Shown piece by piece: positions 1 through 45,962 of a stretch of DNA of 46,168 nt. The translations under genes and the position numbers were made by a program. Source of the DNA: a virus. The stretch spans positions 1-46,168 of the IMG/VR virus record IMGVR_UViG_3300028909_000034. One strand, given 5' to 3'. Position 1 is the stretch's first letter. Each line of letters opens with the position of its first letter. The notes under the pieces are model-generated. The model did not search any database and was not told the DNA's origin. It saw nothing but the letters and a program-made list of their open reading frames with translations.

Positions 1-1269
1 GAGAGTGCTTTTGTTGATGTCAGTACGAAGTTGCATGTTTGGGATCTGAATTTTATCAATAGCTCTGTCACAACGTCCAGCGGCTTCTTGAATAGACGAA
101 CCTACGCCAATAGGGGCGCAAACAAAACCATAATTACCACTGGTGATAAGGGTTTTCTTGTTCTTAGAAAGCATCACATCATACATGTAAGTGTTACAAA
201 GCTGTTCAAGGTTCTCAGGATCAAGCCCTTCTATTGGAATGTCTTTAGTTTTTGGCAGACGTATCTCGGTAGGATACGGCGGCACAGACAATAACACCGA
301 CACTCCAAACGGCGCCTCCCATTTAATCTCAGGTGTCTGCATAGAGGCTATTTTCTGAAGCATATCAGCATAGCCATGACCATACATCGAAGCTATCGTG
401 GGATCGGCAAGATAACCAAAACGTGGCGTCCATTCTAATCCATAGGCTTGATCTTCTGTCAGGATAGTGTTAAGATCGATCATGCCGGTAAAGCTCACAC
501 TCCGAAGGATCGGAATAATCTTCTTCAGCCCGTCACAATAAAGCTTAGAATCTTCAGAAATCGCAAACACAAGATTTCCGCTGCATCCTGTGTTTGGGCC
601 TTTGTTATCGTTCATGAACTTTTTCTCTTCAAGCGTGCAGGTAAGCATGTAGAAATTTTCACCGTTAAAAAATCCTGCTACAGAAGCCTCAGTGCCTTTT
701 ACAAATTCTTGCAGCAAGAACGGCATGTTTTTAGATTGCTTGTACAACAAGTCAATTACCTTGAGCATATCAGAAGCGTCTTTAGCTACGTAGGTTAATG
801 ACTTGTCTTCGCTTCCACCTGGGCCTTCGTAAGGCTTGTAAACGTATCGTTTACCTTCTTTCTTGATAAACGCCTTTGCCGCTCCTGTCTCGGTAAATTC
901 CTGATATGGCGGCATCTTAATACCGACTTGCTCCATCGCCTCAATGCCTGCTTTTCTATCATCCTCGAACGTATGTTCAAACGTTCCATCTCCAATAGTA
1001 GGCGCATCCTGTCTTGACGCATCTGCTTGCCTAGCTCTGCCGGTAAGATCAAACAACGACAAATCATAACCTTTATACGACGGATACCCATATCCAGCCA
1101 CCGTTCTGCGATGATCTAGCGATAGCTTCTTGGGGGACGGAATAAGTCCCCCAAGAACATCCTCATAGTCTGATTTGGACAAGTAGTAATCTACGTCATG
1201 GCCTTCTGCTAAGAGACGTAGCACAAACCACGCTCCCATGCCGTTATACGAGGACATTGCTATCTTCAT
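1..1269 (-). CDS. PurD-like ATP-grasp ligase (5' part; runs off left edge)
   Basis: Reading leftward from ATG at 1269 the frame is open for 423 codons to the window edge. The protein looks like phosphoribosylamine-glycine ligase (GAR synthetase), the ATP-grasp enzyme joining phosphoribosylamine and glycine. Visible family marks: the central ATP-grasp strands with VYKPYEGPGG, then LLQEFVKGTEASVAGFFNG, the signature-like KGPNTGCSGNLVF, the metal-site region YGLEWTPRFGYLADP, and a C-terminal domain ending IQEAAGRCDRAIDKI...RTDI. The N-terminal domain is more diverged. It is the second-to-last gene of the late unit, two bases after the 122-aa gene. In frame, the right window edge would add 14 residues and a stop, giving 437 aa, close to the usual PurD length. 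Family assignment is firm; the real substrate in a phage (purine synthesis, DNA-base modification or peptide ligation) is unknown. Confidence 0.85.
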   Translation of the reverse strand, partial: MKIAMSSYNGMGAWFVLRLLAEGHDVDYYLSKSDYEDVLGGLIPSPKKLSLDHRRTVAGYGYPSYKGYDLSLFDLTGRARQADASRQDAPTIGDGTFEHTFEDDRKAGIEAMEQVGIKMPPYQEFTETGAAKAFIKKEGKRYVYKPYEGPGGSEDKSLTYVAKDASDMLKVIDLLYKQSKNMPFLLQEFVKGTEASVAGFFNGENFYMLTCTLEEKKFMNDNKGPNTGCSGNLVFAISEDSKLYCDGLKKIIPILRSVSFTGMIDLNTILTEDQAYGLEWTPRFGYLADPTIASMYGHGYADMLQKIASMQTPEIKWEAPFGVSVLLSVPPYPTEIRLPKTKDIPIEGLDPENLEQLCNTYMYDVMLSKNKKTLITSGNYGFVCAPIGVGSSIQEAAGRCDRAIDKIQIPNMQLRTDINKSTL

Positions 1270-1270
1270 G

Positions 1271-1639
1271 CTAGCCTCCAAAAGCTACTTTGTAATACAT
1301 TTTCTTCCAGAAAAATACCCACTTAACATGGATTAATTCACGGATCAGATAGACCAGAGAAGGTTTAGGAAGTTTTACTCTTTTATACTGACCTCTCCAA
1401 AAACCAAAATCAGCATACTCTACGGAAATATTCTCTCCATCGAGAGGAATTTTGATGTAGAGTTTCCTATCTCCTACTCTGACAATAAGAACGTGTTTTG
1501 GAAAAACAGAACCCCATCCTCGGATAATAGATATACCCTGTGGAATAGGATCACATTCTTGTCGCTCTTTGATTTCTTGGAAAGCATCTAGGGGAATTTC
1601 CTGATCCCCTAGATCAAAGTTAGTACGTGTAATAGGCAT
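1271..1639 (-). CDS. hypothetical protein, 122 aa
   Basis: I chose the ATG at 1639 (MPITRTN...) because AAAAGGAG lies eight bases before it; an in-frame ATG six codons upstream would place that Shine-Dalgarno inside the gene. The C-terminal third is basic and aromatic (VKWVFFWKKMYYKVAFGG) and could be amphipathic or membrane-associated. I recognise no family. It sits between a 57-codon gene and the PurD-like ligase, both on the same strand, so it is a late gene; a role in the virion or in lysis is possible but not shown. Confidence 0.7.
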   Translation of the reverse strand: MPITRTNFDLGDQEIPLDAFQEIKERQECDPIPQGISIIRGWGSVFPKHVLIVRVGDRKLYIKIPLDGENISVEYADFGFWRGQYKRVKLPKPSLVYLIRELIHVKWVFFWKKMYYKVAFGG

Positions 1640-9342: not shown

Positions 9343-9735
9343 TTAGAATACGTACACTGTAGCGTTTACTGTGTTATCAGATGGTGTGATTGTGATCAAA
9401 TTCTCGTCCGGCGCTGACGGTTGCCAGATGCGTAAATCTTTGTCTGAACTCACGACGTGTGCTCCGATTGGTTGACGAAGAAGCTTGTGGTTAATCACTA
9501 ATGATCCTGACGCCGGCCATGTATAATCATTATCTGTCGTTCCTGTGGCGCCAATGCGAATAAGATTCCCTGAACCGTTTCCTTTGTCAAACTTATTGTA
9601 TTGTCCTGTCGCATCCTTACTATTCGGAGTTCCCATGTCAATATTACCTGTGAGAACTTGCTGGGCTGACTGAACCCACTGTCTGTGTGAGTTATCAAGC
9701 TTATGTGCGAAAGTGTTTGGATCATAAGGAAGCAT
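9343..9735 (-). CDS. tail-associated hypothetical protein, 130 aa
   Basis: Small late protein starting MLPYDPNTFAHKLDNSH. The second half (ASGSLVINHKLLRQPIGAHVVSSDKDLRIWQPS and onward to TVNATVYVF) is beta-rich and reads like a receptor-binding or tail-needle domain. Its start overlaps the end of the 960-aa tail protein, so the two are probably co-translated and may interact. No family recognised. Confidence 0.6.
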   Translation of the reverse strand: MLPYDPNTFAHKLDNSHRQWVQSAQQVLTGNIDMGTPNSKDATGQYNKFDKGNGSGNLIRIGATGTTDNDYTWPASGSLVINHKLLRQPIGAHVVSSDKDLRIWQPSAPDENLITITPSDNTVNATVYVF

Positions 9736-12617
9736 TATACTGGCCTCTGTGCTGGATCAAATGAACCGAACCATGCTACTTTAATAACTCGAAGTTGTGC
9801 AGTCCCGTTATCAGGAAGTCCTGAGACAACAATCTGAAGTTGTGGAGCATGCACGGTAAAAGCTCCAGAAGAATTTACGGTTGTTGGAAAAATCTGAAGT
9901 TCGATAGGATTACTGTTCAATGTGTTAAACTGGGTTGCTGAAAGAGTCACTACAGCAAATACTACACCACTGAAACTAAAGGTTACTTGCACATCCTCAG
10001 AAAAGTCTCCTACCAGCGAAACATACAACGCGTCGATTGTTATATCTCTCCCAAAAGCAAGTTCCTCTTGTGCAAACGTCACACTACTTGCTTGAGAGAT
10101 AGCGTTTATATTCGTCAAACCTTCTTGCAAAGCAAAAAACTGTGGCGGAGCAGTAGTTGAACTAAGAAACGAACTGGCTTCAAGTTGTATACCTACGACA
10201 GAAAGACTTTGATTATATTTATTAGCCCCTGCTGAAGTATTACTAGAAGCAAAAACTCCAAGAAACTCTGTCGCAAGAACAGGTCGTACAAGAGTATTTG
10301 GAATGATTACTGGATAGGTAAACGTAACCCAGGAAGCGTTACTTGTGTTATAAGCAAAGATATTTACATTGGTTACTCTTTGGAGACCTATACCTTGTGA
10401 AGGTACGACAGCCGGAGCCAGAAAATTCACAAGAACAAAAGTATCACCACCTATGTAGACTGAACAAGTGTTCGCGCTGAGTAACTTAAAAGAGTTACCT
10501 GAAGCAATTGCTTGAAAAAGCAAGGCTTTTATCTTCGCACCGATTGAAGATATAGAAGAGGAGATTTGGTAAACATCCGAGTTACCAACGTAAGCTCCAG
10601 TCTGGTCATATTGACACACAAGACTTGAAATCTGCGCTCCTTCTCCTTCATCGCCGAGACCGATGTGAGCAATAGCAAAAGGAAGAGTAGCATTACCAGT
10701 CGGAGTTGCATAGCTAATTCCTTCTGAGCGGATGATAAACGCCGTGCCACTTGTGACAATGAGCCCAGAAAGATAATCAGCTATATCAGCAAGTTGCTCA
10801 AAGCCAGCACCAGTAATGTTACCTGTGAGATCCAGTGGATTCCAGTTATCAAGCTTTCCTGCTGTAGTCCAAGCAAAGATCATATCTGTCGATTGAATTA
10901 CGGTTCCCGGCGCAGGAATAAGACCAAGTCCAATCAGAGAACCGGTGAACTTTCTAAGTACACGCACACCTTGATATGTAGTGGAAACTACGAAAGCACC
11001 AGGACCGCCATATTTGATAATCGCAGGTCCAATATTACCTATGTAGAGTGTTCCACCAACAGCTGTGATCGAAGCTTGTGTTGGAAGCAGAGTAGAAAGT
11101 ACAGTACCACTTCCAGCTCCATCTGAACCACCTGTGAGATTTCCAAAAAGTGGCTCATGAAAAGGAAAGAAATAATAAAACAAATCCGGCCCAGTAATCG
11201 TTGAGCGATCTTGAACAGTGATGCTATTTCCTATGGCACCAGGAATAATCGCTGTAAGCACTAAAGCACTGTGACCGCTGTCAACTTCTGCTGTCACATT
11301 TGCATCAGGAGGATAAGTTCCAGTACCTTTTATATCTGAAGCCATCGTATTTAAAATAAACGCTGGTCCTGTAGTAAGCGTTGGTACTGGTGCAGCAGAT
11401 AAAGCCATAAACGATAAAGGACGACAAAGATAACCTGTGTTCGCATCTCCGGCAGATATAAGTTCAAAAGAAACAACAGAACCACCAGGCCCAACCTCAG
11501 TGATTAAAACTTGCGCATTTGCTCCTGTATAACCTGAAACTTGCCCAATCAATTCATATAGCTCTCCAACATTAAAACCAGCTCCTCCCCCACCAAAACA
11601 AGAGATCAAAGGCCCGATACTTAATGTATCGTCTGTAAAATTATGTCTCACCCCGCCTGCCGCAACCTCTATAACTTGACAAAGTGTAACCCCAGCAAGA
11701 GTGGGTGTTGTTGGAGTAATACCGTTACTCTCAACAGTGTATGTAGCAGTACCGCTCGGCCCATTAATATTAAGTATCACATCGCTATTCTGTGTATATA
11801 CAAGAGCCGCAGCTCCTACTGCATAGTTCCAACCAGCTACACCAACACTAACCGGAAGATAGGAAACGTTCACGTAGTTAGCGGTAAAAGAATCTGGTAC
11901 AAGAGTGAAACCTATGATATTGCCACCGCCTCCAACAGCAGTAACAATGATTTGAGCGGTTACATTCGTTCCTTGTTGAATCCAATAAGTCGAACCGACT
12001 GAGTAGTTAATACCTCCTGTTACAGTTAAAGCCGTAATAATTCCAGGAAGACTAAAAGCAGTATTCGAGGGACTTCCAGAAGTTGCACCTGTGAGAGTTG
12101 TTACTCCAGTTATAGTAACCGTCGCCCCAGTTCCCGGCGTTGCAGAACTGGTAGTCTGAAGCTGCAACGAGATTGATGCCGCCGTGTCTGGTGTTAAACT
12201 ATTAAACAATGTATAATTTAGCGTATCATTATAAAACGTCGCCGGATTTCCAGGAATCCAAGAAGTCATGTAGAACGTATATGCTACTCCAGTAGGAGAA
12301 CCTGCTACTGCGACAGCAGTATAACCAAGAGCGTAGTTTAATGTACCATACTTAGGACTATAAAAGTTTCCAAATCCAATCAGCGTCACACCAACAATAC
12401 CGTTCCAGAGAACAGGAATCTGCACTGGAACAAGCGATGCTGCGACTAACTTATTGTCTACTACTATGAAGCCATCGCACTGTGTAAAACACCGTGGATC
12501 AATGTAAGCTGGCGGCGCAGACGAATCCACGCCGCCAAATGGAGCTTCTATTCCACCATAGGTAACCTCAAGTCCGATGTTACCGTTTGAGAGTTCCTCT
12601 GTTTTGATATGCCCCAC
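9735..12617 (-). CDS. large tail hub / tail tubular-like protein, 960 aa
   Basis: The largest protein in the window. It is almost entirely beta-rich, with many G/T/S/V repeats in residues 130-470 and an alternating strand pattern from 520 to 800 (for example ADYLSGLIVTSGTAFIIRS followed by ISYATPTGN). Such long beta-structured proteins between the head completion genes and ejection proteins are typically the tail nozzle/stabilisation protein (T7 gp12-like) or a hub. The starting residues contain the phrase EAPFGGVDSSAPPAYIDPR, resembling the opening of tubular B-type proteins, where a similar phrase introduces the list of subunits; I regard this as suggestive only. Confidence 0.6.
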   Translation of the reverse strand: MGHIKTEELSNGNIGLEVTYGGIEAPFGGVDSSAPPAYIDPRCFTQCDGFIVVDNKLVAASLVPVQIPVLWNGIVGVTLIGFGNFYSPKYGTLNYALGYTAVAVAGSPTGVAYTFYMTSWIPGNPATFYNDTLNYTLFNSLTPDTAASISLQLQTTSSATPGTGATVTITGVTTLTGATSGSPSNTAFSLPGIITALTVTGGINYSVGSTYWIQQGTNVTAQIIVTAVGGGGNIIGFTLVPDSFTANYVNVSYLPVSVGVAGWNYAVGAAALVYTQNSDVILNINGPSGTATYTVESNGITPTTPTLAGVTLCQVIEVAAGGVRHNFTDDTLSIGPLISCFGGGGAGFNVGELYELIGQVSGYTGANAQVLITEVGPGGSVVSFELISAGDANTGYLCRPLSFMALSAAPVPTLTTGPAFILNTMASDIKGTGTYPPDANVTAEVDSGHSALVLTAIIPGAIGNSITVQDRSTITGPDLFYYFFPFHEPLFGNLTGGSDGAGSGTVLSTLLPTQASITAVGGTLYIGNIGPAIIKYGGPGAFVVSTTYQGVRVLRKFTGSLIGLGLIPAPGTVIQSTDMIFAWTTAGKLDNWNPLDLTGNITGAGFEQLADIADYLSGLIVTSGTAFIIRSEGISYATPTGNATLPFAIAHIGLGDEGEGAQISSLVCQYDQTGAYVGNSDVYQISSSISSIGAKIKALLFQAIASGNSFKLLSANTCSVYIGGDTFVLVNFLAPAVVPSQGIGLQRVTNVNIFAYNTSNASWVTFTYPVIIPNTLVRPVLATEFLGVFASSNTSAGANKYNQSLSVVGIQLEASSFLSSTTAPPQFFALQEGLTNINAISQASSVTFAQEELAFGRDITIDALYVSLVGDFSEDVQVTFSFSGVVFAVVTLSATQFNTLNSNPIELQIFPTTVNSSGAFTVHAPQLQIVVSGLPDNGTAQLRVIKVAWFGSFDPAQRPV

Positions 12618-22815: not shown

Positions 22816-23259
22816 TCATCGCCGTCGCTCCCACATGATAGCGTCTTGAAAATCGCCATAGAAATCAGGTACGTATTGCACGACTTTGAAACCGAGAGAC
22901 TGATGAAAGTTGATCGAGGCGACGTTGTCTACATGACAGTGAGAGTTAATTATGCCAATAGAAATCTCGCTCTCTGTAGCAATCTTAAAGAGTCTAGTCC
23001 CAAGCCTCATCTTGCGATACTGTTCGTTTACTGCCACAGAATAAAAGTACCACATTCCTGTGTTAACAGAGGAAGACTTTAGTACAAGCACAGCGGCGAG
23101 ATCGTTCTGTTCATCTCGTGCTGTGTAGATAGCGACGTAGCCATTTGAAAGCATCTGTCGCCACTCTTCTTCATCCATCTTATGATGCTCATCAAAATTA
23201 ACATCATCAAAATGAGCAAGCAAGACGTCTGTCAAGACTTCTTTTTGAATCTTCATCAT
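22816..23259 (-). CDS. GNAT-family N-acetyltransferase, 147 aa
   Basis: Typical GNAT length. The acetyl-CoA pyrophosphate loop is seen in VAVNEQYRKMRLGTRLFKIA (R/Q-x2-G-x-G/A form, residues 77-96), preceded by a beta strand (DLAAVLVLKSSSV) and followed by VDNVASINFHQSLGFK, the classical C-terminal helix and strand. The acceptor is unknown: host proteins, antibiotics or small metabolites are all possible. Start overlaps the stop codon of the terminase-small candidate (ATGATG in ATGA context), showing coupling. Placement inside the packaging cluster is unusual. Confidence 0.8.
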   Translation of the reverse strand: MMKIQKEVLTDVLLAHFDDVNFDEHHKMDEEEWRQMLSNGYVAIYTARDEQNDLAAVLVLKSSSVNTGMWYFYSVAVNEQYRKMRLGTRLFKIATESEISIGIINSHCHVDNVASINFHQSLGFKVVQYVPDFYGDFQDAIMWERRR

Positions 23260-28333: not shown

Positions 28334-28616
28334 GCTACAGTATGTGATCGTGCGTACTTACTCCGCTGGCGTATTCGCAGGTTATCTCAAGCACCGTGAA
28401 GGCAAAGAGGTAACTCTCACGCAAGCTCGCCGTCTTTGGTATTGGGATGGTGCAGCCTCACTCTCACAACTTGCTATGGAAGGCACTTCAAAACCTCAAA
28501 ACTGTAAGTTTCCTCCTATCGTTGATAAGCAGATTCTTACAGAAGCAATTGAGATTATCAATTGTTCTATGGCTGCTCAAACTTCTATTGAAGGAGTAAA
28601 GGTATGGAGAGCTTAA
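28296..28616 (+). CDS. DUF6948-like protein, 106 aa
   Basis: The central sequence YVIVRTYSAGVFAGYL, then GKEVTLTQARRLWYWDGAAS and LSQLAMEGTSKPQNCKFP, matches a phage/plasmid family I know as DUF6948, function unknown. Start overlaps the preceding gene by 38 bases; AGGAG lies upstream inside that gene. Its end overlaps the start of the glycine-repeat gene. Confidence 0.75.
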   Translation: MAISKTAKKTTPKLQYVIVRTYSAGVFAGYLKHREGKEVTLTQARRLWYWDGAASLSQLAMEGTSKPQNCKFPPIVDKQILTEAIEIINCSMAAQTSIEGVKVWRA

Positions 28617-28831
28617 AAAAGGGCTCTGGCTCTGGCTCTGGCGCTGGCTCTGGCTCTGGCAATGGCTATGGCTATGGCACTGGCACTGGCAATGGCACTG
28701 GCAATGGCTTTGGTTATGGCAATGGCTCTGACTATCTCTATGGCACTGGCTATGGCGATGGCTCTGGCTATGGCGATGGCTATGGCGATGGCTATGGCGA
28801 TGGCTATGGCGATGGCTATGGCGATGGCTAA
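28604..28831 (+). CDS. Gly-X dipeptide-repeat protein, 75 aa
   Basis: After MESLKK the protein is a strict alternation of glycine with S, A, N, Y, T, F, L or D, ending in five near-identical GYGD blocks (12-bp DNA unit GGCTATGGCGAT). Every glycine is GGC and nearly every partner codon ends in T. AAGGAG precedes the ATG, which overlaps the end of the DUF6948-like gene. Such Gly/Tyr/Ser repeats are disordered and may self-associate. All other frames are also open only because of the repeat. Confidence 0.65.
   Translation: MESLKKGSGSGSGAGSGSGNGYGYGTGTGNGTGNGFGYGNGSDYLYGTGYGDGSGYGDGYGDGYGDGYGDGYGDG
28621..28830 (+). repeat. hexamer/dodecamer coding repeat
   Basis: About 35 copies of GGC-NNT (6 bp), becoming a regular 12-bp repeat GGCTATGGCGAT toward the 3' end. 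Likely to expand and shrink by slippage in multiples of 6, keeping the frame. Confidence 0.8.
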
Positions 28832-28839
28832 TCTCAACA

Positions 28840-28930
28840 AGCAGAGGCACTTGCTCTGCTTTAGCCCCTCAAACGTAAGAAGCTACTGATAGATTCTTAC
28901 ACACAGAGATTCACTCTCTAGGGGCTAAAG
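28840..28930 (+). other. structured intergenic element
   Basis: Hairpin AGCAGAG/CTCTGCT (28840-28860) overlaps by two bases an 11-bp outer stem CTTTAGCCCCT (28859-28869) with AGGGGCTAAAG (28920-28930), which encloses GTAAGAA/TTCTTAC (28875-28900). AAGGAG of the next gene follows 14 bases later. Confidence 0.6.
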
Positions 28931-31984: not shown

Positions 31985-32545
31985 GTGTACCTCTACTACG
32001 AACACCACCGCGATGAGCATGGAAAAATCTTGCTTTCTGAGATGCGTCTTAGTTCAGATGGCTCGGGTGAGTTATTTATCTCGCATAAAAATCCGCGTGA
32101 ACAGTTATTAAAAAATCTCTGTGTCCCGATTCTCAAATGGCCACCAATAGCTAAGCGTTCAATGAACGAACGTAATTGGTGTTGGACTTATTTTGACGAC
32201 TGGGGTGAGCAAGTAATCGACAGGCTTAAAGAGGTTACTCGTATAATCAGCGAGATTCAGTGTATCGAAGTAGAAGACCTCGCAGCGCAGGCTATGAATC
32301 ATAAGGTTAGCCTGAAGAAACGTGTAGATGTACGAGATTTCTTCTACCAACAAGTTCCTGTAGCAGCAACGCCTACGCTTACAAAAGAGCAAGTAGCAGC
32401 CAAGCTTCGCTTGATTCTCGGCACCGATACTGTAGACAAATCATCCTACCGTCGTGCGGCGCTACGACTCCACCCTGACAGAAACAACGGCGATGGCAAG
32501 CCTATGTCGGAACTTAACATGCTATGGCAGGTGTATAATGCTTAG
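31985..32545 (+). CDS. J-domain protein, 186 aa, GTG start
   Basis: GTG start with AAGGA 10 bases upstream; the start codon is in the 3' arm of hairpin ACGGC-GTA-GCCGT (31974-31986). The C-terminal 45 residues form a J domain: SYRRAALRLHPDRNNGDG with the HPD motif at residues 163-165, followed by MSELNMLWQVYNA as helix III; helix IV is missing. J domains stimulate the ATPase of DnaK-type Hsp70. The first 130 residues are unrelated to DnaJ and probably bind a client. Phage J proteins can redirect host Hsp70, as large T antigen does in eukaryotic viruses. A separate gene (45154-45894) carries DnaJ-type zinc fingers. Confidence 0.8.
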   Translation: MYLYYEHHRDEHGKILLSEMRLSSDGSGELFISHKNPREQLLKNLCVPILKWPPIAKRSMNERNWCWTYFDDWGEQVIDRLKEVTRIISEIQCIEVEDLAAQAMNHKVSLKKRVDVRDFFYQQVPVAATPTLTKEQVAAKLRLILGTDTVDKSSYRRAALRLHPDRNNGDGKPMSELNMLWQVYNA

Positions 32546-32702
32546 CTTAGTTATTAAGTTTGGACTGGCTATGCTTGCTATAGTTTGGTTCTGGTTTCTT
32601 TGTGAGGAGCTCAGCTATTGGAATTGGCGTTATCAATATCGTAAGTATGATCAGGAGAAAGCAAAATGTCCTTCAACATCACCAATCCAACAAAAGCCTT
32701 AG
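32538..32702 (+). CDS. small membrane protein, 54 aa
   Basis: I chose ATG 32538, overlapping the J-protein stop codon. N-terminal membrane helix LVIKFGLAMLAIVWFWFLC followed by an aromatic, basic segment (YWNWRYQYRKYDQEK). It overlaps the start of the VWA gene by 37 bases. Function unknown. Confidence 0.6.
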   Translation: MLSLVIKFGLAMLAIVWFWFLCEELSYWNWRYQYRKYDQEKAKCPSTSPIQQKP

Positions 32703-33475
32703 ACGCTAAGCGTGCTGCTATAGAAGCAGCAAAAAACGCTGCTGCATCTAAGGCTCTAGGTAACGGCTCCGAGAATAAAGCTGCCTTGATTCGCTTTATT
32801 CCCGCCGCTGAGTGTCCAGACAGGAACAGAATTGTCTTCGACGACTCTGGCTCTATGTCCGGTCAAATCGAGAATGCAAAACAAGGCGTCGTGGAGTATC
32901 TACGAAACTGCATTCCTAACCAAACAGCGGCGGCGATACACTTTATGTGTACAAAGAGCTGGAGCACGACGCTACGCTCGGACCTACCACAACTTAGCGC
33001 AGACTTGCAAGAAGCACAGCTTCAGCTCGGCAGCACGCCGTTTTTTAACACATGCAAAGCTGCTCTAGAAGCTACGCCTGTGCTCACGCGCTTGATCGCA
33101 TTTACAGACGGCTCACCGACAGATGAGTTGCAGGCAGAAGAACGCGAGACTGGAGCTATACAAGGATTCTACAGCCGTGGCGCCGACTCATGGAAAGCCT
33201 CCGCCGATGTTATCATCACAATTGCCAAGAACACACTCAAAGATGGTAAGTGTGTTCCTGTCGACACAGTATTCTTCGGCGTAGATTCTGAGTGGTCCAA
33301 GCGAGAGCGTGAACTTCTCAAGTATCTGAGCGACGCTACCGGCGGATACTTCATGGTATTTGATCCTGCGAAAGTTAACTTCAGAACAGCATTCAAGTAT
33401 CTCGCGCCGGTGAACAGGCTTATGCTTGCATCTTCTTCTGTTCGTTCGGAGATTGAGAATGGCAAACGCACATAA
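32666..33475 (+). CDS. von Willebrand factor A (VWA) domain protein, 269 aa
   Basis: AGGAGAAAGCAAA precedes ATG. The MIDAS metal site is complete: IVFDDSGSMSG gives D59-x-S61-x-S63, the threonine is in LGSTPFF (T124) and the aspartate in AFTDGSPTD (D148). VWA domains bind protein partners through Mg2+. In bacteria they often work with MoxR-type AAA ATPases; none is seen here, though the FtsK-like, Sak4-like and DUF3987 ATPases are in the same unit. The 45-residue N-terminus is Ala/Lys-rich and helical. Role in the phage unknown; assembly of a protein complex is likely. Confidence 0.85.
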   Translation: MSFNITNPTKALDAKRAAIEAAKNAAASKALGNGSENKAALIRFIPAAECPDRNRIVFDDSGSMSGQIENAKQGVVEYLRNCIPNQTAAAIHFMCTKSWSTTLRSDLPQLSADLQEAQLQLGSTPFFNTCKAALEATPVLTRLIAFTDGSPTDELQAEERETGAIQGFYSRGADSWKASADVIITIAKNTLKDGKCVPVDTVFFGVDSEWSKRERELLKYLSDATGGYFMVFDPAKVNFRTAFKYLAPVNRLMLASSSVRSEIENGKRT

Positions 33476-34205: not shown

Positions 34206-35396
34206 GTGTTACCCTCTGAAGCCGCAAAACAACACCTCGAACTCCTAGCACAGTATCCGCCGCTTGTAAGGCAGCAAGTCTCTGTCCTTACCCGTAAGAT
34301 GCTGGTGCTAGGATTTTCTGCGCTCTTTACAGAGCTGGTAGAAGGTCCAATTGTTCGTACCTTCTATTTTAAGCCTGTGGGCGAGCCTAAGTTTTCTAAC
34401 ATTCTCAACAAAGAAGAAGAGATAGCAGGATCGCTTGCTGTAGAGTCTGTACGAATCGAGCGTTCTCTCGGCAACGTCTCTATCTCGGTGCCACGTGAGG
34501 ATCGTCAAACGATACAGTTTGACGCTTGCTTACATAAAATGCTCACGTCAACAGAAACCGCTAACATGGCCCTGCCTCTTCTAATGGGCCAATCCACGAT
34601 TGGAGAACATCTCTATGCGGATCTGGCAAATCAACCTCATCTGCTCATTGCAGGTGCAACAAATAGTGGTAAAAGTGTCTACACGGCCCAGCTTATTTGT
34701 TCGCTTGCTCTCTTTCGTAGCCCGGAGGAGCTGGAGTTTATTCTTGTGGACACAAAGAACCTTGATCTTGTACTATTTAGGGGACTTGAACACGTCAAGT
34801 ATGTTCTCAACAACGTTTCCGATTTACGAGCATCGCTGTCGCAGCTACTTGAAGAAGTTAGACTGAGGAATGCTCAAATGAGTGGGTTGGCGAGGAATAT
34901 CAGGGAGTGGAATCAGCTTCAGACAGGAGCTAGTATCAATCCACGTAACTGCCTGTCTACGATGAAATACAAAGTCCTAATCGTAGACGAACTCGCTGAT
35001 GTATTCATGCAAGATGAAGCGGAGCTTAGTCGTATAGAGCGTAAGCTCCGCCCTCCCACAATCGAGTTCCTACTTCAGCAAATCTCGCAAATCAGCCGCG
35101 CCGCGGGAGTACACTTAATCCTTGCTACACAGCGTCCTAGTGTGGATGTACTCCCCGGTACAATCAAAAACAACTTTCCAGCTCGCGTATGTTTTAAGGT
35201 TCCCGCCAGCGTCGATAGCCGCGTTGTGCTTGATACCGTCGGCGCTGAAAACCTTCTTGGAATGGGTGATTACTTGTACAAGATCGCCGGTTCTGATACC
35301 GTCAAACGTGCTCACAGCGCTTTTGTGAGTATGAATGACATAGCTAACATCATCGCTCAGAATGAGCAGATAAGGAGACAGTATGAGTCAATCTGA
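34206..35396 (+). CDS. FtsK/SpoIIIE-like DNA translocase, 396 aa, GTG start
   Basis: AAGGAGAACTCA then GTG. The motor core is plain: Walker A LIAGATNSGKS (residues 147-157), Walker B KVLIVDELAD (256-265), and the FtsK signature run ILATQRPSVDVLPGTIKNN, then PARVCFKVPASVDSRVVLD and GAENLLGMGDYLY. There is no membrane domain and no C-terminal gamma winged helix, so it is a free cytoplasmic pump, close in plan to SpoIIIE motors or plasmid-transfer FtsK-HerA relatives. It could move phage DNA during replication or resolution of concatemers. It is separate from the terminase motor at 20088-21956. Confidence 0.88.
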   Translation: MLPSEAAKQHLELLAQYPPLVRQQVSVLTRKMLVLGFSALFTELVEGPIVRTFYFKPVGEPKFSNILNKEEEIAGSLAVESVRIERSLGNVSISVPREDRQTIQFDACLHKMLTSTETANMALPLLMGQSTIGEHLYADLANQPHLLIAGATNSGKSVYTAQLICSLALFRSPEELEFILVDTKNLDLVLFRGLEHVKYVLNNVSDLRASLSQLLEEVRLRNAQMSGLARNIREWNQLQTGASINPRNCLSTMKYKVLIVDELADVFMQDEAELSRIERKLRPPTIEFLLQQISQISRAAGVHLILATQRPSVDVLPGTIKNNFPARVCFKVPASVDSRVVLDTVGAENLLGMGDYLYKIAGSDTVKRAHSAFVSMNDIANIIAQNEQIRRQYESI

Positions 35397-40642: not shown

Positions 40643-40839
40643 CAGTACAAGAGTTTGTGCTTCTTGAATATCCTAACGCTAAGTGTATTTTGGAATGCTC
40701 GACAGATCACCTAGATGATTGGGAAGGTCCTGCTTTGTATGATTACATCATAAGAGAAGACGGGAAAGCTATTAGTGATTATGCTCATACACCGTATGAT
40801 GCATGGGTAGCTTGCAAAAAAGAAATCGAGTCGCGCTAA
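40639..40839 (+). CDS. small hypothetical protein, 66 aa
   Basis: ATG overlaps the previous stop. MTVQEFVLLEYPNAKCILEC and a middle WEGPALYDYIIREDGKAISD; ends with TAATG overlapping the exonuclease gene. No family recognised; belongs to the replication operon. Confidence 0.6.
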   Translation: MTVQEFVLLEYPNAKCILECSTDHLDDWEGPALYDYIIREDGKAISDYAHTPYDAWVACKKEIESR

Positions 40840-41927
40840 TGCCCTACATCGGTCCACGCGGTACGTCAAAGGCTCGGATATGGGTGCTTGTTCATAAGCC
40901 TTTTGGCTCTGACACCGGCACTCTCTTCAGCGGCGGCATGGGTCATATCTTCGAGAAGATGCTACGAGAAGCAGGACTCTCATACTCTGACTGCTACGTG
41001 ACAGCTCGTGCTCCTAACACAGACGACGCTCATGCTTTCGCAAACCTTGAGGCAGAGTTGAATTTTCATCAACCACCGTTGATTCTCTCTCTCGGCGACG
41101 TATGCGGTTGGTTTCTTCCGCCACTACGAGAGCCGAAGAGTATGAACACAAGCGCGGGGCAGCTTCAGAAGTATGCAGGCTCGCTGCTTGAATGCAAGTC
41201 TCTAACCTATCCACACTACATGATGCCGCTCTACGGTCCTGATCGTTGCGTCGCAGACTGGACGGAACGGAACATAACAACATACGTTGATCTACAGAAG
41301 CTACGTGATGAGTATGAATGGTGGAAGAAAAACGGTAGCTTAAAACCTCTACCGGCACGTGTTATGAAGTATCAAGACATGGATATGGACGAGTTATTGA
41401 TGTACCTTGACAGGTTCGACGGCGCAAAGGTTATCTCTGATGATATAGAGAATCCCACGTACAATAGCAAGCTGTACGCGCCACATCCGGGGTATCCTCT
41501 GCTAATGGGTCTTGCTGATTCTTCCACGTTTGGCATCAGCTTCAAACTCTTCCGCGATAAACCTTCTGAGAACCGTGAACTCTGGAGACGCCTTGACAAA
41601 CTTTATTCCAATGTCCCTGTGCTCCTTGGACAAAATTTCTTTAATTATGACGCCCTTTTCCACAACATGCTTGGTTTCCGTGTACGCCTTGACCACGTGC
41701 AGGACACCCTCATTCGTCATCACATACTCTGGCCTGAACTGAGCCATAAGCTCCAGTTTATGACACGTCAATACACTCGTGAGCCGTATTATAAAGACGA
41801 AGGCCACGGCTGGAATATCAGGCACATGGATAAGTATCGGCGGTACAATTGTTTAGACGCGTGTGTCACTATGGAGATTTACGAAGCTCAAGAAGAAGAA
41901 TTCAACCAAAGGAGTCAGTTGAGATGA
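40839..41927 (+). CDS. UDG-like domain fused to DNA polymerase 3'-5' exonuclease, 362 aa
   Basis: ATG 40839 overlaps the upstream stop. Residues 1-150 follow the layout of family-4 uracil-DNA glycosylases (IGPRG start, strand ARIWVLVHK, SGGMGHIFEKMLREAGL, CYVTARAPN, ILSLGDVCG), but the usual catalytic acid is not evident, so it may be a structural relic. Residues 190-350 are a DnaQ/PolA exonuclease: Exo I D202-I-E204, Exo II in LGQNFFNYDALF (N269, D271), Exo III Y336-N-C-L-D340. The polymerase domain is a separate gene at 42229-43734. Together they equal one family-A polymerase cut in two with the UDG domain kept, as in SPO1-type enzymes. Confidence 0.75.
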   Translation: MPYIGPRGTSKARIWVLVHKPFGSDTGTLFSGGMGHIFEKMLREAGLSYSDCYVTARAPNTDDAHAFANLEAELNFHQPPLILSLGDVCGWFLPPLREPKSMNTSAGQLQKYAGSLLECKSLTYPHYMMPLYGPDRCVADWTERNITTYVDLQKLRDEYEWWKKNGSLKPLPARVMKYQDMDMDELLMYLDRFDGAKVISDDIENPTYNSKLYAPHPGYPLLMGLADSSTFGISFKLFRDKPSENRELWRRLDKLYSNVPVLLGQNFFNYDALFHNMLGFRVRLDHVQDTLIRHHILWPELSHKLQFMTRQYTREPYYKDEGHGWNIRHMDKYRRYNCLDACVTMEIYEAQEEEFNQRSQLR

Positions 41928-42085: not shown

Positions 42086-42248
42086 TGAGAAAGCTGAAAA
42101 GTTTGAGGATCTTCTCAGCGCTGTTTTCTACCAAGAGCAAGGTTTTCCTATTAAAGCACTTATGATGACTTGCAAGGAATGTGGTGCGTTAGTTATTTTT
42201 GAAACGAGAAAACTTCATTTGGAGTGGCATGACAGACAGAGTAACTAG
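42078..42248 (+). CDS. small C2H2-like zinc protein inside the polymerase split, 56 aa
   Basis: AGGAGGATAAAA precedes ATG. CKECGALVIF...HLEWHDR gives Cys-x2-Cys ... His-x3-His, a single zinc finger. Its end overlaps the start of the polymerase gene by 20 bases. Confidence 0.65.
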   Translation: MDSEKAEKFEDLLSAVFYQEQGFPIKALMMTCKECGALVIFETRKLHLEWHDRQSN

Positions 42249-43734
42249 TTCATACGAACACGCTCTGCAAGCTGCTTATTATCACATAGGCAATCGAGGT
42301 ATCTGTGTCAACACAAAAAGAATTGCTGAAGCTAAAGCTATCGTCAAAGCAGAAATCACTCGTCAGCTTGCTATCGCGTCAAATCAATGGGGCACGAAAG
42401 TATTTGTCGGCACGGCAAACGCACCAGACGAAGGTCCAAAGGGAACGAACGCTGGTGGAGCAATAAATCTCAATGCTACACAAGGAAAGTTCGCTCTCCT
42501 AACCGGCCTCAAAAACCTTGGCTACGAAGTAGTAAAAATCACAAAGAAAGACTCGGAGGGAAACTATGAACAAGGATACTCCACCGGAGAACTCGCACTC
42601 CAAAAGATGCTTTCGAAGAACCAATTCAATTATCCAGGCGGTGATCCTGCCCTCAGAGCAATTCTCAAGATTAGAGAGCTTGGTAAGCTCAACTCCAGTT
42701 ACCTTAACGCTCGACTGCTCACGAGAGGGAATGAATCTTTCTTCCTGTCTAACTATAACGTCGCCGGCACCCTTACTGGACGGCGTTCTTCTAGACGACA
42801 TACTTTCGGTTTTGGTAACAACTCTCAGAACTTTCCGAAGCATAGCGATGTAGCGTCGATGTATCGGCGGTGTCTTGTCTCACGACCCGGAAACATTCTT
42901 TTGATGGTCGATCAGATGAGTGCTGAAGACTGGCCTGTATCGGCGCTGTCAGAGAATTATCAAGCGTTGAAAGAGCTACGCGATGATACCGACGTATACG
43001 GTCGCCACACTCGTCTTGCTTCTGTTATCTTCGGCATCTCACTCTCAGCAAAAACTCCGGGCGAGTGGAAAGAATCTATGGAGCGTTATCTCGGCAAGAA
43101 AACTCGTCACGCCAGCAATTATGACATGAAAGCTGGTAGGATGAGTGACGCGTTGGCACAGGAAGGTTTCTCGTTCTCTGAAGCTGACTGTAAGACGTTG
43201 CTTACCAAGGTAGCCGCGCATGATCCTTCTGTACAGAAGGTCTTTCATCGCTACGTACAAGACACCATCAACAAAACTCACACTCTCGTCACGCCGTTCG
43301 GTCGTGAGAGACAGTTCTTAGGAGCGAGACCAAATGATTCTAACGCTACCCTCTTCAAAGAAGCTTATGCTTATATCCCGCAATCAACGGTGGGTGACAA
43401 TACAGGGTTTGCCGTCCTCAAAATGGAAAGTGACTATGGTGTGGATGAGCGTTTCATCGTGCAAGAAGGGCATGACTCGATTGTGCAAGATGTTAGAGAC
43501 GACGCCGATATTGTGCTTAGACAACTTCTTCGCGTTGTCGATAGCTTTAAACGCAACATCGTGTTTCATAACGGAATCTCCGTTGAGATACCTATCGAAG
43601 CAGAGATCGGCTATGACTTTCAAACGACGGTTCGTATAAAGGAGAACACTCTCTCCGGCGTCAAGACAGCAATCGAAAAACTCAAAGATAAGCTAGCGGC
43701 GTTAGAGCCGCAGAAGGTGATGGTGACGGTATGA
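42229..43734 (+). CDS. family-A DNA polymerase catalytic subunit, 501 aa
   Basis: ATG 42229 has GGAG four bases upstream. AGTLTGRRSSRRHTF (179-193) matches the T-x-TGR-x-SS signature. Motif A MVDQMSAED (D228, E233), motif B region KKTRHASNYDMKAGRM (290-304), motif C VQEGHDSIV (H415, D416; the usual Glu after Asp is Ser417). HTLVTPFGRERQF is a further family block. There is no exonuclease domain in this chain. It is the phage replicase, working with the exonuclease protein 300 bases upstream. Confidence 0.85.
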   Translation: MTDRVTSSYEHALQAAYYHIGNRGICVNTKRIAEAKAIVKAEITRQLAIASNQWGTKVFVGTANAPDEGPKGTNAGGAINLNATQGKFALLTGLKNLGYEVVKITKKDSEGNYEQGYSTGELALQKMLSKNQFNYPGGDPALRAILKIRELGKLNSSYLNARLLTRGNESFFLSNYNVAGTLTGRRSSRRHTFGFGNNSQNFPKHSDVASMYRRCLVSRPGNILLMVDQMSAEDWPVSALSENYQALKELRDDTDVYGRHTRLASVIFGISLSAKTPGEWKESMERYLGKKTRHASNYDMKAGRMSDALAQEGFSFSEADCKTLLTKVAAHDPSVQKVFHRYVQDTINKTHTLVTPFGRERQFLGARPNDSNATLFKEAYAYIPQSTVGDNTGFAVLKMESDYGVDERFIVQEGHDSIVQDVRDDADIVLRQLLRVVDSFKRNIVFHNGISVEIPIEAEIGYDFQTTVRIKENTLSGVKTAIEKLKDKLAALEPQKVMVTV

Positions 43735-43912: not shown

Positions 43913-45157
43913 ATGAGCAGGGTCTTACGCAAGCCGTGGCATGAGGTATATTTTGATTGTGTCTCGCCACACACTGATATGCCGGATAACTTCATAACAT
44001 GGAGTGCCTTCTCTCTGCTTGGCGCGGTGATGAAGAATAATGTACATTTTGAGATCGGCACTTACACACTGTTTCCGAATATGTTCATCGTTCTCGTCGC
44101 TCCGCCGGGTATTGGTAAAGGCACTGCTATGAACATCCTTGAAGACTTAATCAAGGACTGCAAGCCAACAGAGATAGTTAACACTCTCTCTGATCGCATA
44201 ACCGCTGAACGGATTCTCGAACGTATCGCAGATGGTTGGGCTTCACCGCCGAAGATAGTGAACATGCAACTAGCGATGGGTACGAAGGATCATAGCTGTC
44301 TGCTCTTTAGCACAGAGTTACGTGTACTCTTGGGTGCTAGCGAGTGGATGTTGGAGTTTCTCGAAGAAGCATGGAGTAAAAAGACATATGACTATCAGAC
44401 AAAGAATAAAGGCAGCGTGTTTATTGATCACATGTGCTGTTCTCTTCTTGCGGCTAGTGTTCCTGATTTTCTGCGGAATGTCAACAGAGAAGCTCATATG
44501 GTCATCACAGGAGGATTCTCTAGTAGGTGTCTCTTTATCTATGCAGAGAATCCTTCAAAAGATTTACCATTCCCTGAGCCGTTAAAGAAGAATGTCCGTT
44601 CCAAAGCTTTCTATGACAATCTCATCTTAGACCTGCAAGAAATCTCTAAGCTCCAAGGTGAGTTTGTTATTGATCCAGACGCACGAATCATGTTCACGAA
44701 GTTCTTAACCGCCAATCGTATCGCGGCGTCACAAGATGACTCTGAAGCTCTAGCAAACTTTCGTGCTCGTATGAAAGCGCATGTGTTAAAACTCGCTATG
44801 ATCTTCTCTGTCTCGAAGGGTGACTCGTTACATATTGACCAAATGGACATGCTTAATGCTATTGCTGAAGTAAACAAGATCGTATTAAGCTTGTCTAAGC
44901 TCTTCCGCGGCGCCGGTGACGGTATGGATGCCTCTGCTACAGCGCGTATCCAGGATCTAATCGACAAAGCAGGACGCATCTCAAAACGTGAACTACTTCG
45001 TGCTCTGCATCGCCACATGTCATCAGAAACCCTTGATCGTATTCTTTCTATGCTTGAGACAATCGGTAACATAACTCAAGTTAGCCAAAACAAAACCACG
45101 TATTATCAAAACGTGCAACCGCAAATACCGAAGAATGGGAGAGTGGTACATCCATGA
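43913..45157 (+). CDS. DUF3987-type P-loop ATPase (helicase/primase module), 414 aa
   Basis: Starts MSRVLRKPWHEVYFDCVSPH. Walker A LVAPPGIGKGT (61-71); then SCLLFSTELRVLLGAS, the DUF3987 block around Walker B; and the C-terminal HVLKLAMIFSVSKGDSLHID plus a winged-helix-like KRELLRALHRHM. Such proteins replace or assist a replicative helicase in phages and plasmids. No other replicative helicase is visible in the window, so this is the best candidate. Ends by overlapping the co-chaperonin gene. Confidence 0.75.
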   Translation: MSRVLRKPWHEVYFDCVSPHTDMPDNFITWSAFSLLGAVMKNNVHFEIGTYTLFPNMFIVLVAPPGIGKGTAMNILEDLIKDCKPTEIVNTLSDRITAERILERIADGWASPPKIVNMQLAMGTKDHSCLLFSTELRVLLGASEWMLEFLEEAWSKKTYDYQTKNKGSVFIDHMCCSLLAASVPDFLRNVNREAHMVITGGFSSRCLFIYAENPSKDLPFPEPLKKNVRSKAFYDNLILDLQEISKLQGEFVIDPDARIMFTKFLTANRIAASQDDSEALANFRARMKAHVLKLAMIFSVSKGDSLHIDQMDMLNAIAEVNKIVLSLSKLFRGAGDGMDASATARIQDLIDKAGRISKRELLRALHRHMSSETLDRILSMLETIGNITQVSQNKTTYYQNVQPQIPKNGRVVHP

Positions 45158-45894
45158 CAATTTTTAGTTTTCCGCAGGAGATAAATCCTGAGAAAAATAT
45201 TATGCCAGAGGATAACAATCTGGGTGCGTTGGATTTTCTCTCCAAAGAGAAGGCTCGTCTCGAAGCCGAGGACGCCGCCGACGCAGAGTTAAAGTCCTCT
45301 CAAGAGGTCAGACTCGATGGCTCTAATAAAGTCTCGATGCCAGGATTCGCTTACAGCTTTGAGGCTCTAGGTGAACGTATTCTTGTGAGTCTTGATATTC
45401 CGCTGTCAGGCTTTGAGTGCAAAGTCTGCAAAGGCAAGAAACGTATCAAGTACGAGTGTGAGTGTGTAACGAGTGGACATCCTGGAGTAAAATATTCACA
45501 AGAAGAACTAGGTAGACTTAGTGATGTACTTGGTGCTGCTGTAGCAGTTGCCAGAGGTACTCAACCTTGTCCCTCCTGCGGCGGCGATCCAGCGTCAGTC
45601 CGTCGTAACGACATATGCACCGAATGTAACGGCATGGGTGGTGTGCTATGGATTCCACGTAAGGACAAAGAACTTCCTTGTACCGGCGTTGTTGTTTCTA
45701 TGGGTAGCATAGCCAGAGAAAAAGCTTCGTTTAAGGTAGGTGATCGTATACTTTTTAGTCAACACGCTGGCTCGATGATCCCCAACAAAGCTGGCTTGCC
45801 CTTCAAGTACATGGACTGGTACGCCGGCGCTATAAGAATTGAAGGCGCCGACGAAATCAGTGCATTTGATTTTATCTTATCATCTACAGAGTAG
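45154..45894 (+). CDS. GroES-like co-chaperonin with DnaJ-type zinc-finger insertion, 246 aa
   Basis: Residues 1-65 are a helical, acidic extension. GroES fold then starts: strand ALGERILVSLDIP (71-83). Between this strand and the mobile loop lies a 75-residue insert with CKVCKGKK (C89, C92), CEC (102, 104), CPSCGGDP (139, 142) and CTECNGMG (155, 158), the C-x2-C-x-G pattern of DnaJ. Next comes GGVLWIPRKDKELPCTGVVV, matching the GroEL-binding loop GGIVIP and the following strand, VGDRILFSQHAG, and the closing ADEISAF strand. Normal GroES is about 97 aa. It ends the rightward unit; ATG overlaps the previous gene. Confidence 0.85.
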   Translation: MTIFSFPQEINPEKNIMPEDNNLGALDFLSKEKARLEAEDAADAELKSSQEVRLDGSNKVSMPGFAYSFEALGERILVSLDIPLSGFECKVCKGKKRIKYECECVTSGHPGVKYSQEELGRLSDVLGAAVAVARGTQPCPSCGGDPASVRRNDICTECNGMGGVLWIPRKDKELPCTGVVVSMGSIAREKASFKVGDRILFSQHAGSMIPNKAGLPFKYMDWYAGAIRIEGADEISAFDFILSSTE

Positions 45895-45923: not shown

Positions 45924-45962
45924 TAAGAAGCCCCACACAGAATAATAGTGTGGGGCTTCTTA
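45924..45962. terminator. bidirectional terminator
   Basis: Perfect 15-bp stem TAAGAAGCCCCACAC (45924-45938) with its complement at 45948-45962, loop AGAATAATA. It lies between the convergent ends of the rightward unit (stop 45894) and the leftward unit (stop 45969). U-runs are weak on both strands. Confidence 0.75.

Follow-up and report, generated by a model that had tools for sequence, protein, structure and literature searches.

A GroES-fold phage protein with a DnaJ-like zinc-finger insert in its predicted GroEL-binding loop

A gene near the right-hand end of a virus contig raises the question of whether a GroES-type co-chaperonin can carry a DnaJ-type zinc finger within its own chain, and of what such a protein would do for a phage. 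The window, that is, the whole stretch of DNA analysed, is an IMG/VR virus record of 46,168 bases from an uncultured phage of soil type. The original prediction, made from the sequence, had placed in it a 246-residue GroES-like co-chaperonin with a DnaJ-type zinc finger ahead of the mobile loop, and the position and length that it gave for the reading frame (45154-45894, plus strand) are exact. The product is almost certainly a GroES-fold protein with a DnaJ-like zinc insert. The reading that we favour, with a probability of roughly 0.6, is that of a phage co-chaperonin that would cap host GroEL while its zinc fingers would keep clients or a partner at the mouth of the chamber. The gene and the parts of its product are as follows.

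45154-45894, plus strand: zinc-finger GroES-like gene; open reading frame from ATG to TAG, 246 aa plus stop; recognized by the Cpn10 profile and by AlphaFold and Foldseek
45154-45351, plus strand: N-terminal extension, residues 1-66, with a predicted helix at 23-48; missing or different in distant relatives
45355-45417, plus strand: residues 68-88, SFEALGERILVSLDIPLSGFE, comprising the first strand of the GroES fold and the mobile loop's N-terminal limb, from alignment and model
45418-45627, plus strand: zinc-finger insert C89-C158, 70 aa with eight cysteines, from the sequence; DnaJ-like by its relatives
45418-45429, plus strand: zinc motif 1, C89xxC92, predicted to form site 1 with motif 4; invariant in 23 of 23 aligned members
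45457-45465, plus strand: zinc motif 2, C102xC104, predicted to form site 2 with motif 3; missing jointly with motif 3 in single-zinc members
45466-45567, plus strand: mosaic, hypervariable helical finger, residues 105-138; identity drop against L004, modelled helices 116-126 and 128-134
45568-45579, plus strand: zinc motif 3, C139xxC142; conserved in the close clade
45616-45627, plus strand: zinc motif 4, C155xxC158; invariant in 23 of 23 aligned members
45646-45654, plus strand: predicted GroEL-binding tripeptide L165-W166-I167, followed by P168; a hydrophobic tripeptide plus P across the family
45655-45843, plus strand: remaining GroES barrel, residues 168-230, with a short roof loop; Cpn10 match 162-210 and modelled strands
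45844-45891, plus strand: C-terminal tail with a GAxxxxAFDFxL motif conserved in clade A, from alignment

Membership of the GroES family is indicated by the Cpn10 profile, the predicted fold and a predicted GroEL-binding tripeptide. In the window protein Cpn10 scores 29.4 bits against a Pfam cut-off of 21.1 (E 8.2e-7), and the PHROG co-chaperonin GroES profile matches at 4.3e-5; Cpn10 is found in 22 of 23 family members and PHROG GroES in 19 of 23. The GroES assignment made earlier therefore holds, and the four strings on which it was based are in GroES order, namely LGERILVSLDIP at residues 72-83, GGVLWIP at 162-168, GVVVSMG at 178-184 and VGDRILF at 195-201. When all PDB sequences were compared with a profile of 14 members, GroES came first (6e-10) and DnaJ-type zinc proteins came next, with DnaJ, BSD2 and anti-TRAP forming the second-ranked group after GroES in the profile searches; some other zinc protein in place of GroES, the adverse outcome envisaged at the outset, did not appear. 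In the same PDB search the SFEALGERILVSLDIPLSGFE limb was aligned to KPVGDRVLVKVDK of Cpn20 (7ekq), and residues 68-88 are kept in all aligned members.

The AlphaFold monomer of the 246-residue protein contains a GroES beta-barrel, the absence of which would have counted against the original prediction. Mean pLDDT is 73, mostly 83-95 in the barrel blocks and below 60 around zinc motifs 1 and 4. One modelled strand (75-80) falls within residues 68-88 and five within residues 168-230 (177-183, 198-201, 207-209, 217-221 and 225-229). The top Foldseek matches of the model are solely GroES, Cpn10, Cpn20-type and gp31 chains, nearly all with probability 0.9-1.0, and the best matches in BFVD are viral GroES proteins and co-chaperonins, mostly of 85-155 aa. 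Compared with GroES/Cpn10 of bacteria and organelles (PF00166), the phage protein shares the fold, the strand order, the tripeptide-bearing mobile loop and the VGDRxxF motif, but differs in its 70-residue zinc insert, N-terminal helix, C-terminal tail and short roof loop.

The predicted LWI-P begins six residues past the last zinc cysteine and is the counterpart of IVL in GroES. Every member has such a tripeptide followed by P (LWI, VWI, III, LVL, LIL, IIL, IIV, LII, IVI, IVL, LVV, IAI, VVV or LEI), and all are hydrophobic apart from the central Glu of LEI in one member. We know of no canonical GroES with a Trp in this tripeptide, as in the LWI of the window. No GroEL gene is encoded in the 25 contigs examined, so the partner would be the GroEL of the host, and it is likely that the window protein caps it.

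A GroES-like barrel of another lineage was also considered, in particular that of medium-chain alcohol dehydrogenases, in which this N-terminal domain likewise bears a structural-zinc lobe. Dehydrogenases do occur among the lower-ranking Foldseek matches, and ADH_N matches one member at 0.0052, but in 22 of 23 members the Cpn10 match is much the stronger, the chain lacks a Rossmann domain, and the mobile loop is where the insert, with its DnaJ-type motifs, is found. Such an origin is very improbable, the alcohol-dehydrogenase-type domain being ruled out by the PDB profile search, Pfam and Foldseek.

Scans of viral contigs for the same fusion, as had been proposed, recovered 26 distinct members from uncultured-virus contigs, with 23-100% identity; these comprise the 23 distinct proteins that were aligned and three from contigs reached via the J-like companion described below. 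One relative comes from a circularly closed genome, a contig of 46,858 bases with a 123-base overlap between its ends, and dN/dS in the GroES parts is well below 1 (0.00-0.19 where computable). A chance open reading frame or an assembly chimera is rejected as exceedingly improbable, given the many separate contigs, the conserved cysteines, the circular genome and the low dN relative to dS in the GroES parts; nothing was found in favour of either.

No relative was found in 84,980 cellular genomes in two scans with narrow patterns. When several members were compared by tblastn with 50,697 phage records, no insert-bearing relative was found among the matches listed, which were plain GroES of 82-87 aa or unrelated Cys-rich proteins. 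The claims of phage origin and of no annotated phage relative with the same architecture are in agreement with these searches. In BFVD a small number of viral GroES-like models are longer (183-304 aa), and these may include an unnoticed relative. No paper on a zinc-finger GroES was found in the open-access literature, and across the collections and papers searched no annotated protein combines GroES with a DnaJ-like zinc finger. The GroES fold family is known; what is new is a DnaJ-like zinc domain inserted in the GroES gripping loop. Because a diversified family is behind it, the anatomy of the protein is well supported, and more strongly than first claimed; its function we infer.

The kinship of the insert to DnaJ was assessed in the window protein and across the family. 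The original prediction counted four cysteine units in about 75 residues placed before the mobile loop. The four units are present (C89xxC92, C102xC104, C139xxC142 and C155xxC158), in an insert of 70 aa, and the GroES sequence is indeed interrupted, but the break is in the N-terminal limb of the mobile loop, just before the tripeptide, and not ahead of the loop. Within the close clade of the window, no full-length member lacks any of the eight cysteines. Taken by itself, the window protein is matched by the DnaJ Cys-rich profile PF00684 over residues 134-162, with E 0.018 and 15.7 bits, against a Pfam cut-off of 32.7 bits. The window motifs are degenerate, with CxC as motif 2 alongside CKVCKGKK, CPSCGGDP and CTECNGMG. 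Among the relatives, PF00684 matches 13 of 23 members (best 1.2e-6), isolated inserts align to the profile end to end (1-65; 2.1e-6 and 6.4e-5), and NCBIfam DnaJ_bact matches L098 at 2.3e-5, exactly over the Cys-rich region. The inserts of clade B (L052, L054, L094, L097, L098 and L127) have four CxxC units, mostly in CxxCxGxG style, which is clear in L052, L054, L098 and L127, and a Foldseek search with the L098 model ranks DnaJA2 and BSD2 after GroES. Cysteine composition as the sole cause of the match is rejected, since none of eight Cys-preserving shuffles matches PF00684. The DnaJ-type module is thus borne out through the relatives, on which the kinship of the window insert rests, its own match being sub-threshold. 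We call the insert DnaJ-like because no listed score exceeds the cut-off (the best, 28.3 bits, is for the isolated L054 insert) and because of the E-value of the window protein.

The phage module shares with DnaJ the CxxCxGxG repeats, a predicted nested pairing and, in the DnaJ-like members, the end-to-end profile match. It differs from DnaJ in that it is embedded in a GroES loop, in a chain without a J domain (no Pfam match to one was found in the GroES-like chain itself) or C-terminal DnaJ domains, and in that motif 2 is CxC and the helical finger is long in the window's clade. BSD2 is a plant DnaJ-type zinc protein that acts on the Rubisco large subunit after the chaperonin. It is a free-standing DnaJ-like zinc domain working beside a chaperonin and is a structural match to L098, but it is separate, unfused to a co-chaperonin. 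A similar zinc module occurs in lambdoid Q-like antiterminators (phrog_127, TIGR02642), with weak matches and no GroES fold; they are a possible source of the module. As a separate observation, a protein of a 642-kb phage (LR756502; L148, 3-1241) has a long array of DnaJ-like CxxC repeats.

Pairing of the motifs was considered by analogy. In DnaJ the first and last motifs, with C147, C150, C200 and C203, make up zinc site 1 (PMC8262869). Across the phage family the insert varies from 24 to 104 residues, with 4, 8, 9 or 12 cysteines, and six members (L044, L047, L048, G028, G029 and G032) have a single CxxC pair. In L044, L047 and L048 the retained pair aligns with motifs 1 and 4, and that of G028, G029 and G032, outside the 23-member alignment, is likewise assigned to motifs 1 and 4. 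Motifs 2 and 3 are accordingly present or absent as a unit, the pattern expected of nested pairing. From DnaJ and the single-zinc members, motif 1 is predicted to pair with motif 4 and motif 2 with motif 3. In an insert-free tree L044, L047 and L048 are at three places, but the branches are weak and three events are not forced. At the other extreme, a member at a contig end (L090, 3851-4573) has 12 cysteines, as six CxxC units, in its GroES insert.

Between motifs 2 and 3 is a finger of 34 residues, which, like the J-domain-like companion, goes beyond the original prediction. The window protein and L004 are 35% identical in amino acids over residues 105-138 and 99% identical across the rest of the compared core; at the DNA level, identity falls from ~90% to ~50% at the finger, and the borders of the drop are sharp and coincide with the conserved zinc motifs. 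L004 is a 15-kb contig, and its DUF3987 neighbour gene is 90% identical in DNA to that of the window. The same drop at the finger is seen in L028 and L032, an independent case, and the window finger resembles the L028 finger (53%) more than the one in its sister L004 (35%). The finger appears to be swapped at constant length among close relatives. The sequence pattern looks like recombinational exchange of a recognition element, with strong diversifying change as the alternative, and exchange among close relatives suggests that the finger may be a recognition surface.

The zinc domain might instead be a structural spacer, giving a longer and stiffer mobile loop for a given host GroEL, or a larger chamber, without binding clients. 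T4 gp31 is a precedent: its mobile loops have 22 residues where those of GroES have 16, its chamber is ~8% larger, and it has no roof loop (PMC6318259). The insert is exactly in the mobile loop, its length varies over 24-104 residues while the barrel is conserved, and the roof loop of the phage protein is also short, as a spacer would have it. A spacer leaves the conserved DnaJ-like zinc motifs and the constant-length finger swaps unexplained, however, and the likely major capsid protein of the window, at 319 aa, would fit a normal chamber. We regard the spacer as unlikely, though far from negligible. T4 gp31 is also a precedent for a mobile loop altered to suit a phage client (PMC6318259). 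In DnaJ the zinc domain binds unfolded substrates and works with DnaK (PMC8262869). That the phage zinc domain binds a client or partner is possible, at a little under even odds.

The genes around the locus bear on what the clients might be.

43913-45157, plus strand: DUF3987 primase/helicase gene, directly upstream; Pfam DUF3987 2.2e-22, PHROG DNA primase 3e-32
45925-45961, plus strand: inverted repeat AAGAAGCCCCACAC...GTGTGGGGCTTCTT, a strong repeat found by sequence inspection
31985-32545, plus strand: companion protein of 186 aa with a C-terminal J-domain-like segment containing HPD; PF00226 0.0011

There is a 4-base overlap between the start of the GroES-like gene, at its ATG, and the stop of the primase/helicase gene, and the DUF3987 gene is the upstream neighbour throughout clade A, the window type. 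In this clade the order is DNA polymerase, DUF3987 primase/helicase and GroES-like gene, converging on leftward structural genes; the GroES-like gene closes the replication operon, outside the structural genes, and the inverted repeat is probably the terminator closing this rightward operon. In clade B the gene directly adjoins those for terminase large subunit and portal, as does the plain GroES of phage DSL-LC05, and this adjacency fits a role in head assembly. T4 gp31 and plain phage GroES proteins (phrog_3188; DSL-LC05 and Bacteroides phage SJC03) share the GroES fold and phage encoding, and some are beside portal or terminase genes, but the two plain ones compared have 82-87 aa and no zinc insert. 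Steering of GroEL to the capsid protein, as suggested originally, is only one option, since the window's clade has the gene at the close of the replication operon.

That same position, converging on the structural genes, would also suit a repurposed GroES fold that blocks or redirects host GroEL in host takeover or counter-defence, or that serves as a virion or redox protein, and that no longer folds phage proteins; the fast-changing finger could then mean an arms race. The family-wide retention of barrel and tripeptide and the terminase and portal neighbours in clade B, shared with the plain GroES of DSL-LC05, argue against such a change of function, which we consider quite improbable.

Several other features of the window and its relatives were recorded. 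The DNA polymerase is split over two open reading frames (40803-41927 and 42199-43734, plus strand), both phrog_17, with a similar split in relatives, and the N-terminal one has a weak uracil-DNA glycosylase superfamily match (0.0001). At 1-1281 (minus strand) an ATP-grasp, GARS-like protein is cut by the left end of the window. In relatives the neighbours of the ATP-grasp gene are the zinc-finger GroES gene and a signal-peptide-like tail gene. The two window ends are therefore probably adjacent, with a tail gene missing between them. The early region encodes an FtsK/SpoIIIE-like ATPase (34206-35396, plus strand) and a von Willebrand A-domain protein (32666-33475, plus strand). At 28488-28850 (minus strand) HSHRHSQ-type repeats are read in the reverse frame, so the other strand may carry a short tandem repeat. 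A GNAT acetyltransferase gene (22816-23259, minus strand) is beside the packaging genes, and a similar N-terminus occurs in L051 (1787-2227), between polymerase genes; these different genomic places suggest a mobile gene.

The companion protein of the window has HPD but no clear helix I, and its PF00226 score is 19.4 bits against a cut-off of 27.8. Its homologues reach 6e-10 and 35.4 bits, and HPDRNNG is invariant in their alignment. The J-like companion is present in 10 of 10 clade-A contigs of more than 33 kb and in none of three large clade-B contigs. A search starting from the J-like protein gave new contigs, and all three of 48-50 kb carry the zinc-finger GroES; fragments without the latter also lack the DUF3987 gene, so that this region is probably just missing from them. 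The co-occurrence is limited to one clade of related phages and is accounted for equally well by common descent and by a shared task. A distantly J-domain-like 64-kb viral contig has a plain GroES match in an open frame of 99 aa (L209; G037, 9628-9885).

On the favoured reading, that of a phage co-chaperonin capping host GroEL, the GroES barrel would form a ring and cap the host chaperonin through the retained mobile-loop tripeptide. Motifs 1 and 4 would make one zinc site, pinning the two loop limbs together beside the tripeptide, and motifs 2 and 3 a second, bearing the helical finger that would project from the loop. Seven fingers would then be located at the seam between GroES and GroEL. 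From there they could bind phage clients, or a partner, for example the DnaK/J machinery, and pass them into the chamber. In the window's clade, the separate J-domain-like phage protein may activate host DnaK, so that two phage proteins, one attached to GroES, would share out the functions of DnaJ between them. We infer ring formation, GroEL capping, zinc binding, client binding and DnaK handover from these comparisons. That the system couples DnaK to GroEL is doubtful, and the fuller scheme, with DnaJ split in two proteins, DnaK-held clients passed directly to host GroEL and an exchangeable finger setting the client or partner, is at least as doubtful.

The usual description of a GroES-type lid is that of a passive cap, with client choice made by GroEL. 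In a diverse natural family with DnaJ-type fingers in the lid loop, the lid itself would have a surface for binding clients or partners. Such a lid would offer a handle on client handover between Hsp70/Hsp40 and the chaperonin and would be a natural design for specialised chaperonins, and through domain swaps the mosaic finger allows client recognition to be put to the test.
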